Below are positions 18,949-37,798 of a stretch of 52,423 nucleotides of DNA, one piece after another. Below the pieces are notes generated by a model. It made no database searches. It was not told the origin of the DNA and worked only from the letters and a program-made list of their open reading frames with translations. Source of the DNA: a virus; the IMG/VR virus record IMGVR_UViG_3300020172_003900, positions 1 through 52,423 of that record. The stretch is one strand, 5' to 3'. How positions within the stretch are numbered: position 1 is the first letter of the stretch; each line of letters opens with the position of its first letter. The translations under genes and the position numbers were made by a program.

Positions 18949-19333
18949 GGGGATGAATGGAATCGATTGGCATAGTTGGTTATCGGTGGCACGTAGGAAC
19001 TGAGTTAATTCCTTAAAAACTGATTCAAACGATTAGACGGCAACGTTCTAGACAAAATGGCTCTATTAGGTCTTGTTAAACAAGATGAGCTTGTAGCGGT
19101 AGCGTAAGCACAACTACATTCGGGTCGGCAGACATATAACCCAGGAACAGGAGTCTTTGATGGGTTTGGTTTCTACCCTAAAGAAACTAAGTGGAGGAAT
19201 AGTTCTCAGTAAACCGAACCACTTTAAAAATAAGGGAATTGTGAATTTCGGAGTATTAGAAAATACTGACCTAAACGTGTAGTCACCTATAGTCAAGATG
19301 AACAAGACGAGAGTTCGAATCTCTCCATCTCCA
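18949..19333 (+). ncRNA. ssrA: Transfer-messenger RNA (tmRNA)
   Basis: Rescues stalled ribosomes and tags the unfinished protein. The 5' end GGGGATG pairs with CATCTCC at 19326-19332, discriminator A, giving the tRNA-like acceptor; the T arm GAGAGTTCGAATCTCTC is complete. The 5' domain has AATGGAATCGATTGG. The reading frame after TTAGAC starts with GGC at 19039 and ends at TAA 19105-19107: it begins GNVLDKMALLG and ends DELVAVA, 22 residues; a shorter 17-residue tag would follow the second TAGAC. CCA is not encoded. Host tags in this phylum are usually short and end ALAA, so this tag is unusual. A terminator follows. Confidence 0.92.
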
Positions 19334-19341
19334 CTAAAATG

Positions 19342-22566: not shown

Positions 22567-23646
22567 AAGTTTTTCAAACTTAGGTTTGAGGTATTTCCAT
22601 ATAATATGGTCATATGGTTTTCTATCCCACATTGCAAAACATAGTGATTTAACTTTAGGATGTACTTTATTAAGTTCTAAATGTTCTGCAAATTCTTTCT
22701 TAGTAGGTTCAACTTCTCTATCACCATACTTTCCATATCGGAAATAGTCGTGTAGTTTTCCCGCATACTCAGAATAACGATAATGGTTATAATTTAAAGT
22801 TGAAACGTACTGTTTTACTTTTTTATAGAATTCATCAGGAACGTCCTTCAAATAATCCTCCATTTTACCTCCAGTACTTAAAACCTCCCAAACACCAGTA
22901 GTAGATAGGTTAGTCATTATTTTATGAAGACGAAGATATTCTTCACCTTTTATCTTCATTCTATCTCCATTAGAGAATCTAACCACAAACCCTTCTTTAT
23001 TATCTGCAATTGCGTGTTTTAAGTAAGTGTAGTCAGATATACCATCATATTTTCTAACGATATTAAACCCTAAGTTGTTTAAAAGGTTTTTGAACCTAAC
23101 ATCTACATTATTACCTGAGTGTATGTTAACCTCGTAACCATCTTTAGTGTGTATCATTCCTAATAATACCAAATCTTCAAAATCGTAAGAACAAACTATT
23201 CTATTCTCAGGATAGATTATTTCAAACAAATAAGTATAGTCAGGGTTTAATCTCTGATATTCATATTTTTGAAGTAACTCAGTACCTTTAACCGATTGGT
23301 CAGAAGTAAAAGAACCACGAGTCGCAAGAACCCACTCACCTTTGTAGTTGAATAAGATTCCCAAAGAACCGTCCATTTTTTCATACACATCAAAATCCTC
23401 AGTTGGAGTGTGTTGGTTTTCTTCTATGTTGAAGAATTTCTTAAATGGTCTTGCAACAACATTACCCTCATTGTCAGTAACCAATCCACGGCATTGTTTG
23501 GTAACATCATCCCAAAATTTATATTGGTTATTACCTTCACCGTATTGAACCTTTGGAGTATAGTTCCATATAGTCAAAGGAAGGGTAGGATGCACTTGTT
23601 TTTGCACCAACTCTTTCTCGTAATATTTGTTCAATTGCTCTAACAT
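22564..23646 (-). CDS. RNA ligase, T4 Rnl1-like
   Basis: A 360-residue ATP-dependent RNA ligase. Motif I is YEKMDGSLG with nucleotide-accepting Lys90; downstream are RGSFTSD, YLFEIIYP, EGFVVRF and the motif V lysines in RMKIKGEEY. In T4 this enzyme repairs tRNA cut by host defence nucleases. With 28 phage tRNAs nearby, the same job is likely. A perfect host-type promoter ends five bases before the ATG, so the message is probably leaderless. Confidence 0.88.
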   Translation of the reverse strand: MLEQLNKYYEKELVQKQVHPTLPLTIWNYTPKVQYGEGNNQYKFWDDVTKQCRGLVTDNEGNVVARPFKKFFNIEENQHTPTEDFDVYEKMDGSLGILFNYKGEWVLATRGSFTSDQSVKGTELLQKYEYQRLNPDYTYLFEIIYPENRIVCSYDFEDLVLLGMIHTKDGYEVNIHSGNNVDVRFKNLLNNLGFNIVRKYDGISDYTYLKHAIADNKEGFVVRFSNGDRMKIKGEEYLRLHKIMTNLSTTGVWEVLSTGGKMEDYLKDVPDEFYKKVKQYVSTLNYNHYRYSEYAGKLHDYFRYGKYGDREVEPTKKEFAEHLELNKVHPKVKSLCFAMWDRKPYDHIIWKYLKPKFEKL

Positions 23647-28655: not shown

Positions 28656-28894
28656 AAAAAACGTTCAGCTCTTTTGAGTTGTCCCCAATACCGAATTTCA
28701 GCGGCAACCCACTTTCGTGAGGGGTTAGAACTAGTGTGTTAACTTACTCCTGCCACTGGTACACTAACCAACCGACTTAGACTCAAGTAATCGGCTCAGG
28801 TCCCTGTGGTAGTGACACCACTTCTCATCATACGGGAGCATATTAGGCGGGAACTACCTCTTTTTTTATATTTCCGAAACACGGAAACCACGTG
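28656..28894 (-). other. Structured 239-base spacer between tRNA-Arg and tRNA-Ser
   Basis: No gene recognised. Potential stems include CAGCTC/GAGTTG, TAGTGT/ACACTA, CCGA/TCGG, GTGGT/ACCAC and TTTCCG/CGGAAA. It is more GC-rich than ordinary spacers here and lies within the presumed tRNA transcript. It may hold one or two small structured RNAs. Confidence 0.4.
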
Positions 28895-29018: not shown

Positions 29019-29092
29019 GGTAACTAACGGGAATCGAACCCGTGACACCTTGAACCACAATCAAGTGCTCTACCTACTGAGCTATAGCCACC
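29019..29092 (-). tRNA. tRNA-His(GTG)
   Basis: Acceptor GTGGCTA/TAGTTAC with two G-U pairs, discriminator C and an encoded extra 5' G opposite it (histidine identity), anticodon loop TTGTGGT. Confidence 0.93.
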
Positions 29093-29099
29093 ATATTAG

Positions 29100-29232
29100 T
29101 AGTCAAGGTCGGACTCGAACCGAATACCGTTCAAGACGGAATAGACAACCTTACAACTTCTCGCGTCCAAAGGGTTATGGACCGTGGTGTCTTCAGGACT
29201 CGGGTACCATCCCTCATTACGCCCACTTGACT
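29100..29232 (-). ncRNA. 133-nt tRNA-like RNA without a usable anticodon
   Basis: Ends AGTCAAG and CTTGACT form a perfect 7-base acceptor-like stem with an A following, and a T arm with loop TTCGAGT sits directly inside it, as in a tRNA. The middle is about 60 bases too long and holds hairpins (GGG/CCC, GTCCA/TGGAC, ACGGTAT paired with ATTCCGT) but no 7-base loop with U33 and a clear anticodon. It could be a decayed or interrupted tRNA, or a distinct tRNA-like RNA. Confidence 0.45.
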
Positions 29233-29307
29233 AATTACCCCACTTCACCAGATTAACGGACTGGCTGCCATATGGGAGTGGGGGTTTCCCGTTAATTCGG
29301 GACTCCG

Positions 29308-29380: not shown

Positions 29381-29722
29381 AAGTATGATAATGATGGAGT
29401 ACCCGTCTCGCTCCAATCTTAACGGCTTCTTCTGAGTTTTATCAGTGCACTGGCCGAGGGTGCTGAATTCCGATTCCACTCTGGATTGTCGACATCCATT
29501 GAATGGGGAAAACCATTATCAATATTATTAAAATAAATCACTTTCGCCCCCTGTATATAGTTTACAGTAAACTATCTACTGTAAACCTTGGATGCTTAAG
29601 GTCATCCTTAACTATTAAGGGAGCCACCCGTGATTTAATATTTTTTTCTTCAAAGAACTCACTTTTCAGGGGGAGTAGGTCACCATCCTACCAACTACCC
29701 ACTCCCCCGTCCAACTACAATA
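29381..29722 (-). other. Long leader between a promoter and tRNA-Phe
   Basis: About 340 bases with no recognised gene. From the promoter it holds a large hairpin (GGGGGAGTGGGT with ACCTACTCCCCC, 29669-29708) whose 3' side reads as a tiny frame MVTYSP, then a boxA-like element (29647-29660), an inverted repeat GTTTACAGTAGATAGTTTACTGTAAAC near 29562-29588, and a possible GTG-started 40-codon frame at 29419-29541. I do not call these frames as genes. The region may be an attenuator or a structured RNA. Confidence 0.45.
29647..29660 (-). promoter_or_regulatory. boxA-like element before tRNA-Phe unit
   Basis: Minus strand GAGTTCTTTGAAGA, close to the GTTCTTTGAAA element of the tmRNA and tRNA-Leu leaders. 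Confidence 0.5.
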
Positions 29723-29754
29723 CAAATGTACTGCGATTTTTTTAATTAACCAAA
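29723..29754 (-). promoter_or_regulatory. Promoter of the distal tRNA unit
   Basis: Minus strand TTTG, 20 bases, TACATTTG; full match to the host consensus. It reads toward tRNA-Phe, the 133-nt RNA, tRNA-His and the Ser/Arg tRNAs. Confidence 0.85.
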
Positions 29755-29812
29755 CATTTTTTATTCACTTCCGAGTTTGGACGTGTTTTACTTCCGAGTT
29801 TGGCATTTTTTG

Positions 29813-30127: not shown

Positions 30128-30130
30128 AAT

Positions 30131-30258
30131 TTAGGAAAACAGAAGATGGTCGAGTGGACATCTGTTTTTACGATTAGCATTACTTGGGTGAATACCTGCC
30201 AACTCCGATTGTACTAGTCAGTATTCACTCTCGAACTATCAGTACAATCATTCCCTAA
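30131..30258 (-). ncRNA. Compact RNA with a predicted H-type pseudoknot
   Basis: Between tRNA-Tyr and tRNA-Asn. GTGAATAC (30188-30195) pairs with GTATTCAC (30221-30228), and GATTGTACT (30207-30215) pairs with AGTACAATC (30241-30249); the two perfect stems of 8 and 9 bases interleave, a pseudoknot. A hairpin AAAACAGA/TCTGTTTT (30136-30143, 30161-30168) and closing arms TTAGG/CCTAA complete it. Strand is assumed from the tRNAs. Function unknown. Confidence 0.5.
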
Positions 30259-30275
30259 TCAACCTAATTTTTTTG

Positions 30276-33306: not shown

Positions 33307-33330
33307 ATATATAAATACTTTAAGAGTATA

Positions 33331-33379
33331 AAAAAAGAAAGGTTCTAAATCATCCCCACGCCATTTTGGGAGAACCTTT
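33331..33379 (-). terminator. Terminator of the large noncoding RNA
   Basis: AAAGGTTCT (33338-33346) pairs with AGAACCTTT (33371-33379), with an inner CCCA/TGGG stem, followed on the minus strand by TCTTTTTTT. Confidence 0.88.
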
Positions 33380-33862
33380 CAAAGTTAAGTATATCTTGGC
33401 GACATAATATCCCACACCATTATGACTAAGATTTGTTAGCCCATAGTAACCATCCTTGGTGGGTTTCTACTCTCACACTCCGTCCATATTTACTAACCTA
33501 ATCGATGTGTCATAGATTTTCAGATATTGCGTTCAGTGTTACCCTCAGGACATCTTCACCCTACCCCCAAAGTTACGTGGCGAGTCTCACTCGGAAGCTG
33601 AGTGTGTATTGTAGAATTGTCCAGTATTTCTACAACTTGTGGATTGTATTACGACTAATTAAAGCCCCCTTACCCCCTCTATCCATAATGGGGAATCCTA
33701 TCTAACCTGTGTAGCCTCCCCCATAGCCTTGAAGCCTTCAAGTCAGGTTCACACACCATAACAGTCGGATATCTCTGTTAATCGTGGGGTCTTAAATAGA
33801 GTATGACGTATGCTCGTTTTATAGTTGTTTCCATCCGCAAACTCACGGTTCTCTCTATTTCT
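33331..33862 (-). ncRNA. Large structured noncoding RNA (~530 nt), unclassified
   Basis: A transcription unit without a protein frame: host-type promoter at 33867-33897, terminator at 33331-33379. The RNA is rich in long-range and local pairings: AAATAGAG near the 5' end with CTCTATTT about 60 bases later, hairpins CTTGAAGGCTTCAAG, TTGTAGAA/TTCTACAA and CACTC/GAGTG, arms AACCTG/CAGGTT, and nested CCCA/TGGG. It lies inside the tRNA region. Size, setting and ornate folding resemble the GOLLD and ROOL classes of giant phage RNAs, but I cannot confirm either. Confidence 0.7.
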
Positions 33863-33866
33863 TTTA

Positions 33867-33897
33867 CAAATGTATGGATTTTTTTTTAATCTTCAAA
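33867..33897 (-). promoter_or_regulatory. Promoter of the large noncoding RNA
   Basis: Minus strand TTTG, 19 bases, TACATTTG; transcription should start near 33862. Confidence 0.85.
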
Positions 33898-33900
33898 CAA

Positions 33901-34485
33901 TTAAGATAAAAAAGACAAAACTTTTTCTTTAATTCCAGATTGTTTTAACCCTTCATTCGCGCTTGGAGTTAAGACAAAATTTTCTAATCCCCAATCGTGA
34001 GTAAACTTCATACCATAATACATACCTGTTTTACCCATATCAAGGTCATCTATTGAAACCCAATGAGTAACTTCGGGATGGTCGTGTAAGTACTGTTTAA
34101 TTTCAATTGTACGAGTTTGTTGTAAATCCCAATCTCTAGACCAAATAAAGTTATTTCCGTGTACCGTACATTCACTTAAATTAGGTGTAAAGGCGATTGG
34201 TTTTTTTGAAATACCTTTTGACTCATAGTACTCACCCATTTCCTCAACATTTGCCCATCTTTTCCAATCCGAAGATACAACAATCTCAGCACCAGTTTCT
34301 TCTAAAATTTTATTTAAAACTTTAACCGCCTTTTCGTTGAAGTTGTCAAATCTATACTCGATTGGCATACCTTTAACATCCATAGTAAGTTTATTACCTT
34401 CCCATTTTTGTCTTTTCTTGTAACGACCTCCCCACTCTGTGGATAAACAGATTACTCCGTCGTGGTCTAAAAATATAACTTTCAT
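33901..34485 (-). CDS. HAD-superfamily phosphatase (RNA-repair-type candidate)
   Basis: A 194-residue protein with the HAD nucleophile motif MKVIFLDHDGVI (Asp7, Asp9), motif II in EIVVSSDWKRW, and an acidic motif WVSIDDLDMG. The sequence pattern recalls HAD domains found in multi-domain RNA-repair proteins. A phosphatase acting on RNA ends would fit with the RNA ligase and cREC genes, but the substrate is unknown. The next gene upstream ends two bases before its ATG. Confidence 0.78.
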   Translation of the reverse strand: MKVIFLDHDGVICLSTEWGGRYKKRQKWEGNKLTMDVKGMPIEYRFDNFNEKAVKVLNKILEETGAEIVVSSDWKRWANVEEMGEYYESKGISKKPIAFTPNLSECTVHGNNFIWSRDWDLQQTRTIEIKQYLHDHPEVTHWVSIDDLDMGKTGMYYGMKFTHDWGLENFVLTPSANEGLKQSGIKEKVLSFLS

Positions 34486-37534: not shown

Positions 37535-37619
37535 GTTTAGATGAGTCGTGGACTTGTGTACCACTTTTGTCCCCCTTTAAATTATTCACTAACCCCAGGT
37601 GTAGGGAAACCCATCTTAG

Positions 37620-37694
37620 TTGCGGGGGCGGGATTCGAACCCACGTAGTTTGGCTTATGAGACCAAGCTGGAACCAACTCCAGTCCACCCCGCG
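37620..37694 (-). tRNA. Initiator-like tRNA-Met(CAT), divergent
   Basis: Acceptor CGCGGGG/CCCCGCA with an unpaired C1-A72, the hallmark of bacterial initiator tRNA, and anticodon loop CTCATAA. The D arm is unusual and the anticodon stem has only two of the three conserved G-C pairs (TTGGT/GCCAA). Confidence 0.75.
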
Positions 37695-37798
37695 ATATAT
37701 CTTTGTCATCACTTCGGCCACATCGTGAAAGCCGCCCCTCACGCGTTGTTTAAAGGAATCCGATTGCGGCCTCATCCTACCGAGTTATGATAACTTTG
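37695..37798 (-). other. GC-rich spacer between the two initiator-like tRNAs
   Basis: About 100 bases with no recognised gene, including GATGTGGCCGAAGTGATGAC and CGTGAGGGGCGGC. Its base composition is unlike ordinary spacers here. It may hold a structured RNA or processing signals. Confidence 0.35.

Follow-up and report, generated by a model that had tools for sequence, protein, structure and literature searches.

The locus and its boundaries

The window, by which we mean the whole 52-kb stretch of viral DNA that was analysed (52,423 nucleotides), encodes a T4-like portal and terminase, a tmRNA, and 27-28 tRNAs. Its closest named relatives by terminase, Flavobacterium phages, share only 28% identity with it. 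Judging from these distant relatives and from the promoter type described below, the host of this T4-like phage is probably a member of the Bacteroidota. The tmRNA (18949-19336, plus strand) matches all 374 positions of its model and lies on the strand opposite to the main tRNA array. The window also encodes a T4-type RNA ligase (22567-23646) and an RNA-repair-type HAD domain protein (HAD_SAK_2; 33901-34485). The gene for the HAD protein is directly upstream of the RNA that is the subject of this report; it is common among related phages, usually not adjoining the RNA.

The sequence-only reading of this DNA had proposed a noncoding RNA of about 530 nt with its own promoter and terminator, and this was borne out: an RNA of about 531 nt lies between a predicted promoter (33897-33867) and a predicted terminator (33379-33330), on the minus strand, which the reading had not specified. 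The main features are:

33867-33897, minus strand: Bacteroidota-type promoter, with TTTG (33897-33894), a 19-nt spacer, and TACATTTG (33874-33867); identified from sequence
33794-33861, minus strand: module A, an optional 5' element of 68 nt with 17 occurrences (13 distinct)
33334-33792, minus strand: module B, the core RNA, 459 nt (408-536 nt in homologues), known from 33 distinct homologues and a distant member (L269)
33330-33379, minus strand: 3' hairpin with an inner stem and then a T-run; at once an intrinsic terminator and a part of the fold, identified from sequence and covariation

The promoter fits the earlier description of a host-type element; we take it to be of the Bacteroidota -33/-7 type, and it places the predicted RNA start near 33860. 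The terminator that it had noted is likewise present, with arms AAAGGTTC (33379-33372) and GAACCTTT (33345-33338) followed by CTTTTTTT to 33330. GC content is about 0.39 across the RNA, versus roughly 0.25-0.34 in the adjacent protein-coding sequence.

The claim that the region has no plausible protein frame also held. There are stops in all sense frames. In the core, no run of sense codons free of stops is longer than 38 codons in the window, and the corresponding maximum is 29-72 codons in the homologues. No protein frame is shared among the homologues of the core, which differ by many frame-breaking indels.

The earlier reading had also noted several hairpins and long-range pairings. Single-sequence folding gave this part no support: the minimum free energy of the minus strand is the same as that of shuffled sequences (z = -0.05), and the plus strand scores z = -1.68. 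Because the energy is ordinary, we do not treat the single-sequence fold as evidence, and the case rests on comparison, which did back several of the pairings (see below). We considered the plus strand as the RNA strand and rejected it, because the counts of G-U versus A-C cells (37 versus 1 in the covarying helices), the promoter, the T-run, and the strand of the tRNAs all indicate the minus strand.

Homologues in uncultured phages

We searched IMG/VR with neighbouring proteins and short DNA patterns, and then with nhmmer. Counting the window's own copy, we found 33 distinct homologues of the core, with a mean pairwise identity of 0.78 and a minimum of 0.63. All of them are on uncultured IMG/VR contigs, from many independent metagenomes. 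With a covariance model built on the 3' domain, we identified the additional, much more distant member, on a 270-kb contig (L269; E = 1.2e-9). The RNA is missing from many relatives: of the 49 records that we examined, which are often fragments, 21 matched it.

Searches of phage and plasmid records with blastn found chance matches only and no homologue, and we encountered the RNA in no cultured phage. The covariance model of the 3' domain had no match in five related named phage records (Flavobacterium phage immuto, two huge uncultured phages, a Microcystis phage, and phage C48C1). A genome scan with CACGTAACTNTGGGGGTA gave one match in a bacterial MAG (L156), which we judged to be due to chance; its flanks had no similarity. 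Our literature searches found no description of the RNA; preprints and most subscription papers were outside their reach, so an earlier description is possible.

Covariation supports a conserved, pseudoknotted fold

For the comparative folding, we used an unguided MAFFT alignment and considered perfect antidiagonal helices of at least four pairs. As a null model, we simulated 100 alignments with AliSim along the maximum-likelihood tree, using site rates and keeping the gaps of the original. We observed 11 helices with at least two compensatory pairs, while the simulations had a mean of 0.1 and a maximum of 1. (Chance may account for one or two of the 11, as overlapping partners of real helices.) Seven helices had at least three compensatory pairs, versus none in any of the 100 simulations. 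When pairwise covariation scores were compared with the AliSim null, no individual pair was significant, which is why we adopted a helix-level statistic.

In the 3' domain, with a structure drawn by eye, 93.2% of 1120 cells are paired and 32 of 35 pairs have compensatory changes. The covariation score is 0.506, compared with 0.085-0.118 after a shift of the partners by 1 to 3 columns. Since this structure was picked after seeing the data, the helix-level AliSim test is the fairer one.

The RNA is a conserved, strand-specific, pseudoknotted noncoding family. It has what is expected of large structured noncoding RNAs in general, namely compensatory change beyond that due to phylogeny and no conserved protein frame. 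That the region is instead a coding gene or a sequence artefact we regard as practically impossible: nothing that we found favours it, and besides the interrupted frames, the indels, and the many independent metagenomes, covariation this far above the phylogenetic null already refutes it.

The helices and pairings, all on the minus strand, are, from 5' to 3':

33759-33780: hairpin P2 (33780-33775/33764-33759), 3 compensatory pairs
33770-33767 with 33698-33695: putative pseudoknot PKa, the P2 loop with a segment before P3, 2 compensatory pairs
33673-33694: hairpin P3 (33694-33690/33677-33673), 2 compensatory pairs
33653-33666: hairpin P4 (33666-33663/33656-33653), 2 compensatory pairs, 100% paired
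33608-33636: hairpin P5 (33636-33628/33616-33608), 6 compensatory pairs, 100% paired
33622-33619 with 33551-33548 (GUCC): putative pseudoknot PKb, from the P5 loop; pair 172/244 is AU:17, GC:15, GU:1
33588-33604: hairpin P6 (33604-33600/33592-33588), 1 compensatory pair, 100% paired
33475-33539: P7 (33539-33535/33479-33475), 3 compensatory pairs; encloses a variable insert of 8-58 nt
33412-33464: P8 (about 33463-33457/33419-33412), 7 pairs, 6 of them compensatory; encloses P9
33441-33436/33429-33424: hairpin P9, 99% paired, 5 of 6 pairs compensatory
33434-33430 with 33351-33347: putative pseudoknot PKc, the P9 loop with the terminator stem-loop, 5 of 5 pairs compensatory
33401-33397 (CGCCA) with 33362-33358 (GGCG region): putative pseudoknot PKd, with its 3' partner inside the terminator hairpin, 5 of 5 pairs compensatory

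The conserved body contains two inserts of variable size. P8 is paired in 100% of cells in 32 sequences. We had also considered an RNAalifold pairing of the 5' segment ACCCCACGAU with GGUGUGGGAU, which was dropped after divergent members were added to the alignment; the partner of the GGUG strand is a local one, in P8, and that of the 5' CCCCA is UGGGG, with one compensatory change.

Four predicted pseudoknots, PKa to PKd, are supported by the alignment. PKc is paired in 99.4% of cells in 32 sequences, and the distant member L269 retains the complementarity as GUGUC with GACAC. PKd is paired in 81% of cells, as computed on the uncorrected alignment; by eye, its replacements in relatives are of the UACC/GGUA, CGGAU/AUCCG, and UGGUA/UACCA types. 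PKa occurs as UCC/GGA and CUC/GAG. The support for PKb is mainly from its one strongly covarying pair. Alignments do not distinguish whether loop pairings form within or between molecules, and a covarying kissing loop in ROOL turned out to be intermolecular (PMC12286853).

An optional 5' module and the position of the promoter

In module A, a closing stem of 8 bp (33860-33853/33801-33794) is accompanied by two inner stems and by a hairpin with a GAAA cap. Across its occurrences, 99.5% of cells are paired, 6 of 17 pairs are compensatory, and its covariation score exceeds that of all 500 shuffles. The closing stem covaries (GC, UA, and AU types), as do the inner stems, and the unpaired nucleotides are near-invariant. 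The module lies 5' of the core in the window and in 14 of the homologues that we found, and is missing in others. On three contigs (behind L015, L021, and L270, the last with a divergent form), it is found between tRNAs without the core.

Where a promoter lies directly 5' of the RNA, the start of its -7 element is 83-86 nt from the core in members with module A and 20-21 nt from it in those without. The promoter therefore keeps its place relative to the leading module, be it A or the core, and this speaks for a defined 5' end. The pattern TTG-N18-22-TAnn[TC]TTG occurs within 140 nt upstream of 11 of the 33 homologues, versus 3.4% of background 140-nt windows; some of these members are closely related, so the matches represent fewer than 11 independent events.

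If the RNA were catalytic or processed itself, for instance with module A cleaving itself off or with the core as a ribozyme in aid of tRNA maturation, this would account for the near-invariant unpaired nucleotides and the GAAA-capped hairpin of the 68-nt module, for the compact pseudoknotted core, and for the close spacing to tRNAs (see below). We consider this unlikely, as Rfam models of ribozymes, RNase P RNA, and introns had no match in the window region or at the other loci that we searched, and module A is also found on its own. The tRNAs that flank the RNA are intact on both sides, which excludes a tRNA intron.

Comparison with known RNA families

A search of the window region with Rfam 15 at E up to 10 gave only a few chance-level matches, far below the cut-offs. 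No model matched the RNA of divergent relatives at E up to 5 or 1 (loci L145, L129, and L109; L269, L252, L266, and L221). ARAGORN and Rfam detected no tmRNA or tRNA-like domain within the RNA. The phage's tmRNA (RF00023) resembles it in being structured and pseudoknotted and in being encoded by the same phage, but is a separate gene.

The sequence-only reading had left two options, a member of the GOLLD or ROOL classes or a new class. A noncoding RNA of a new class is favoured by the strong covariation, the constant strand, the lack of a shared protein frame, and either a promoter of its own or a position beside tRNAs. Membership is not supported, as no Rfam family matched, these two included. 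The GOLLD model had no match in the window region or at the other loci. GOLLD RNAs are found in phages and prophages and are linked to tRNA islands, with a conserved 3' region and a more variable 5' part, and in all of this they resemble the new RNA; however, many GOLLD members are over 800 nt, versus 408-536 nt for the core.

ROOL RNAs are also phage-encoded and often near tRNA islands, and a solved example of 659 nt has multiple pseudoknots and a variable linker (PMC12286853). The new RNA is similar in setting, length, pseudoknots, and variable inserts. It differs in that the ROOL model finds no match in the window (E ≤ 10) or at the seven loci from relatives, in its optional and separable 5' module, and in being often wedged between tRNA genes. 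ROOL forms a homo-oligomeric RNA nanocage, and the new RNA may work likewise. Descent from GOLLD or ROOL, with divergence so great that the similarity has been lost, would explain the common setting in phages and tRNA islands, the ROOL-like size, the pseudoknots, and the variable linkers (PMC12286853). Yet models that combine sequence and structure found nothing, even at E up to 10 for the region and up to 5 or 1 for other loci, and we consider such descent quite improbable.

The freshwater-1 RNA (RF02979) is encoded within the same tRNA arrays as the new RNA on two contigs (L266:6397-6459 and L221:2331-2392), which places that family in the tRNA islands of T4-like phages. It is only 62 nt, lies elsewhere in the array, and does not overlap the new RNA. 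In the window, freshwater-1 is absent at the gathering threshold.

Genomic setting

Most of the homologues (27 of 33) have a tRNA within 1 kb, and the tRNAs that lie up to 3 kb from the RNA, 238 in number, are all on its strand. In many relatives, tRNA genes are 1-7 nt from one or both ends of the RNA. The placement in a tRNA region that had been proposed from the window is thus accurate for the relatives but looser for the window itself, where the nearest tRNAs are 1.9 kb off on either side.

The T-run is kept in most homologues. Two of them (L187 and L221) have no proper T-run and a tRNA starts 1-7 nt downstream, so in these the 3' hairpin probably serves as a structural end, and tRNA processing would produce the mature end.

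No downstream gene is constant: a tRNA follows in most homologues and a protein gene in the window. The window's arrangement, in which a 532-aa frame starts 24 nt after the T-run of the terminator, is in line with a cis-acting leader or attenuator of a downstream gene. We give that reading very little credence. The 532-aa protein has only two matches in viral contigs, the tRNA genes that follow in other phages are often within a few bases, and the 3' hairpin and its PKc contact are kept by compensatory change. Among the homologues we found no conserved alternative pairing that could act as an antiterminator.

Interpretation

There are few large ornate RNAs without an assigned function, the best known being GOLLD, ROOL, and OLE; two of these three build RNA-only cages. 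From the comparisons above, we conclude that the RNA represents a putative new family of large ornate phage RNA that is like GOLLD and ROOL in setting and complexity and is not demonstrably related to them. It is very probably a stand-alone structural RNA that acts in trans. We infer a discrete transcript expressed with the tRNAs; the promoter geometry and the predicted terminator are consistent with its being discrete.

Transcription from the minus strand would start at the host-type promoter and end at the RNA's own 3' hairpin. Alternatively, the RNA may be excised from a tRNA precursor, as the 1-7-nt spacing in relatives suggests. The transcript would fold into a compact, multiply pseudoknotted body with the pairings predicted from covariation, and the 3' hairpin would serve both as terminator and as structural element. 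The RNA would then work as a folded molecule, not as a message, leader, or antisense RNA.

Because the setting and complexity resemble those of GOLLD and ROOL, our preferred guess at a mechanism, a tentative one, is that the RNA might be abundant and associate with itself into an RNA-only particle for phage translation or tRNA handling. It is doubtful, though conceivable, that the full picture applies: an RNA that forms a defined protein-free particle, is excised as tRNAs are, has a detachable 5' module that also serves by itself between tRNAs, and belongs to a wider set of structured RNAs in the tRNA arrays of T4-like Bacteroidota phages.

An unrelated family in the niche of GOLLD and ROOL would suggest that such RNAs arose more than once in phages, and a new family would enable comparative tests of what large ornate RNAs do. 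The covariation is strong enough for a structural model that is ready for probing and cryo-EM.

Other conserved segments of the tRNA arrays

Between the tRNAs on the minus strand of the window are conserved segments that are not tRNAs, mostly GC-richer and kept among relatives:

28656-28893, minus strand: conserved segment, 8 distinct hits
29092-29306, minus strand: conserved segment, 28 distinct hits
29381-29811, minus strand: conserved segment, 34 distinct hits
30128-30274, minus strand: conserved segment, 18 distinct hits
37695-37797, minus strand: conserved segment, 9 distinct hits

This suggests that the tRNA arrays hold further unclassified structured RNAs, and some of the segments may be unusual tRNA-like genes. 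At six loci (L090, L109, L138, L149, L151, and L176), the RNA is flanked by odd units that resemble tRNAs in their acceptor stem (GTCAGG...CCTGAC) and T arm but have an unusual middle; ARAGORN often does not call them. At 37619-37694 of the window is a degenerate or atypical tRNA, to which ARAGORN assigns a two-base anticodon (ct) and which scores only 34 bits with Rfam.
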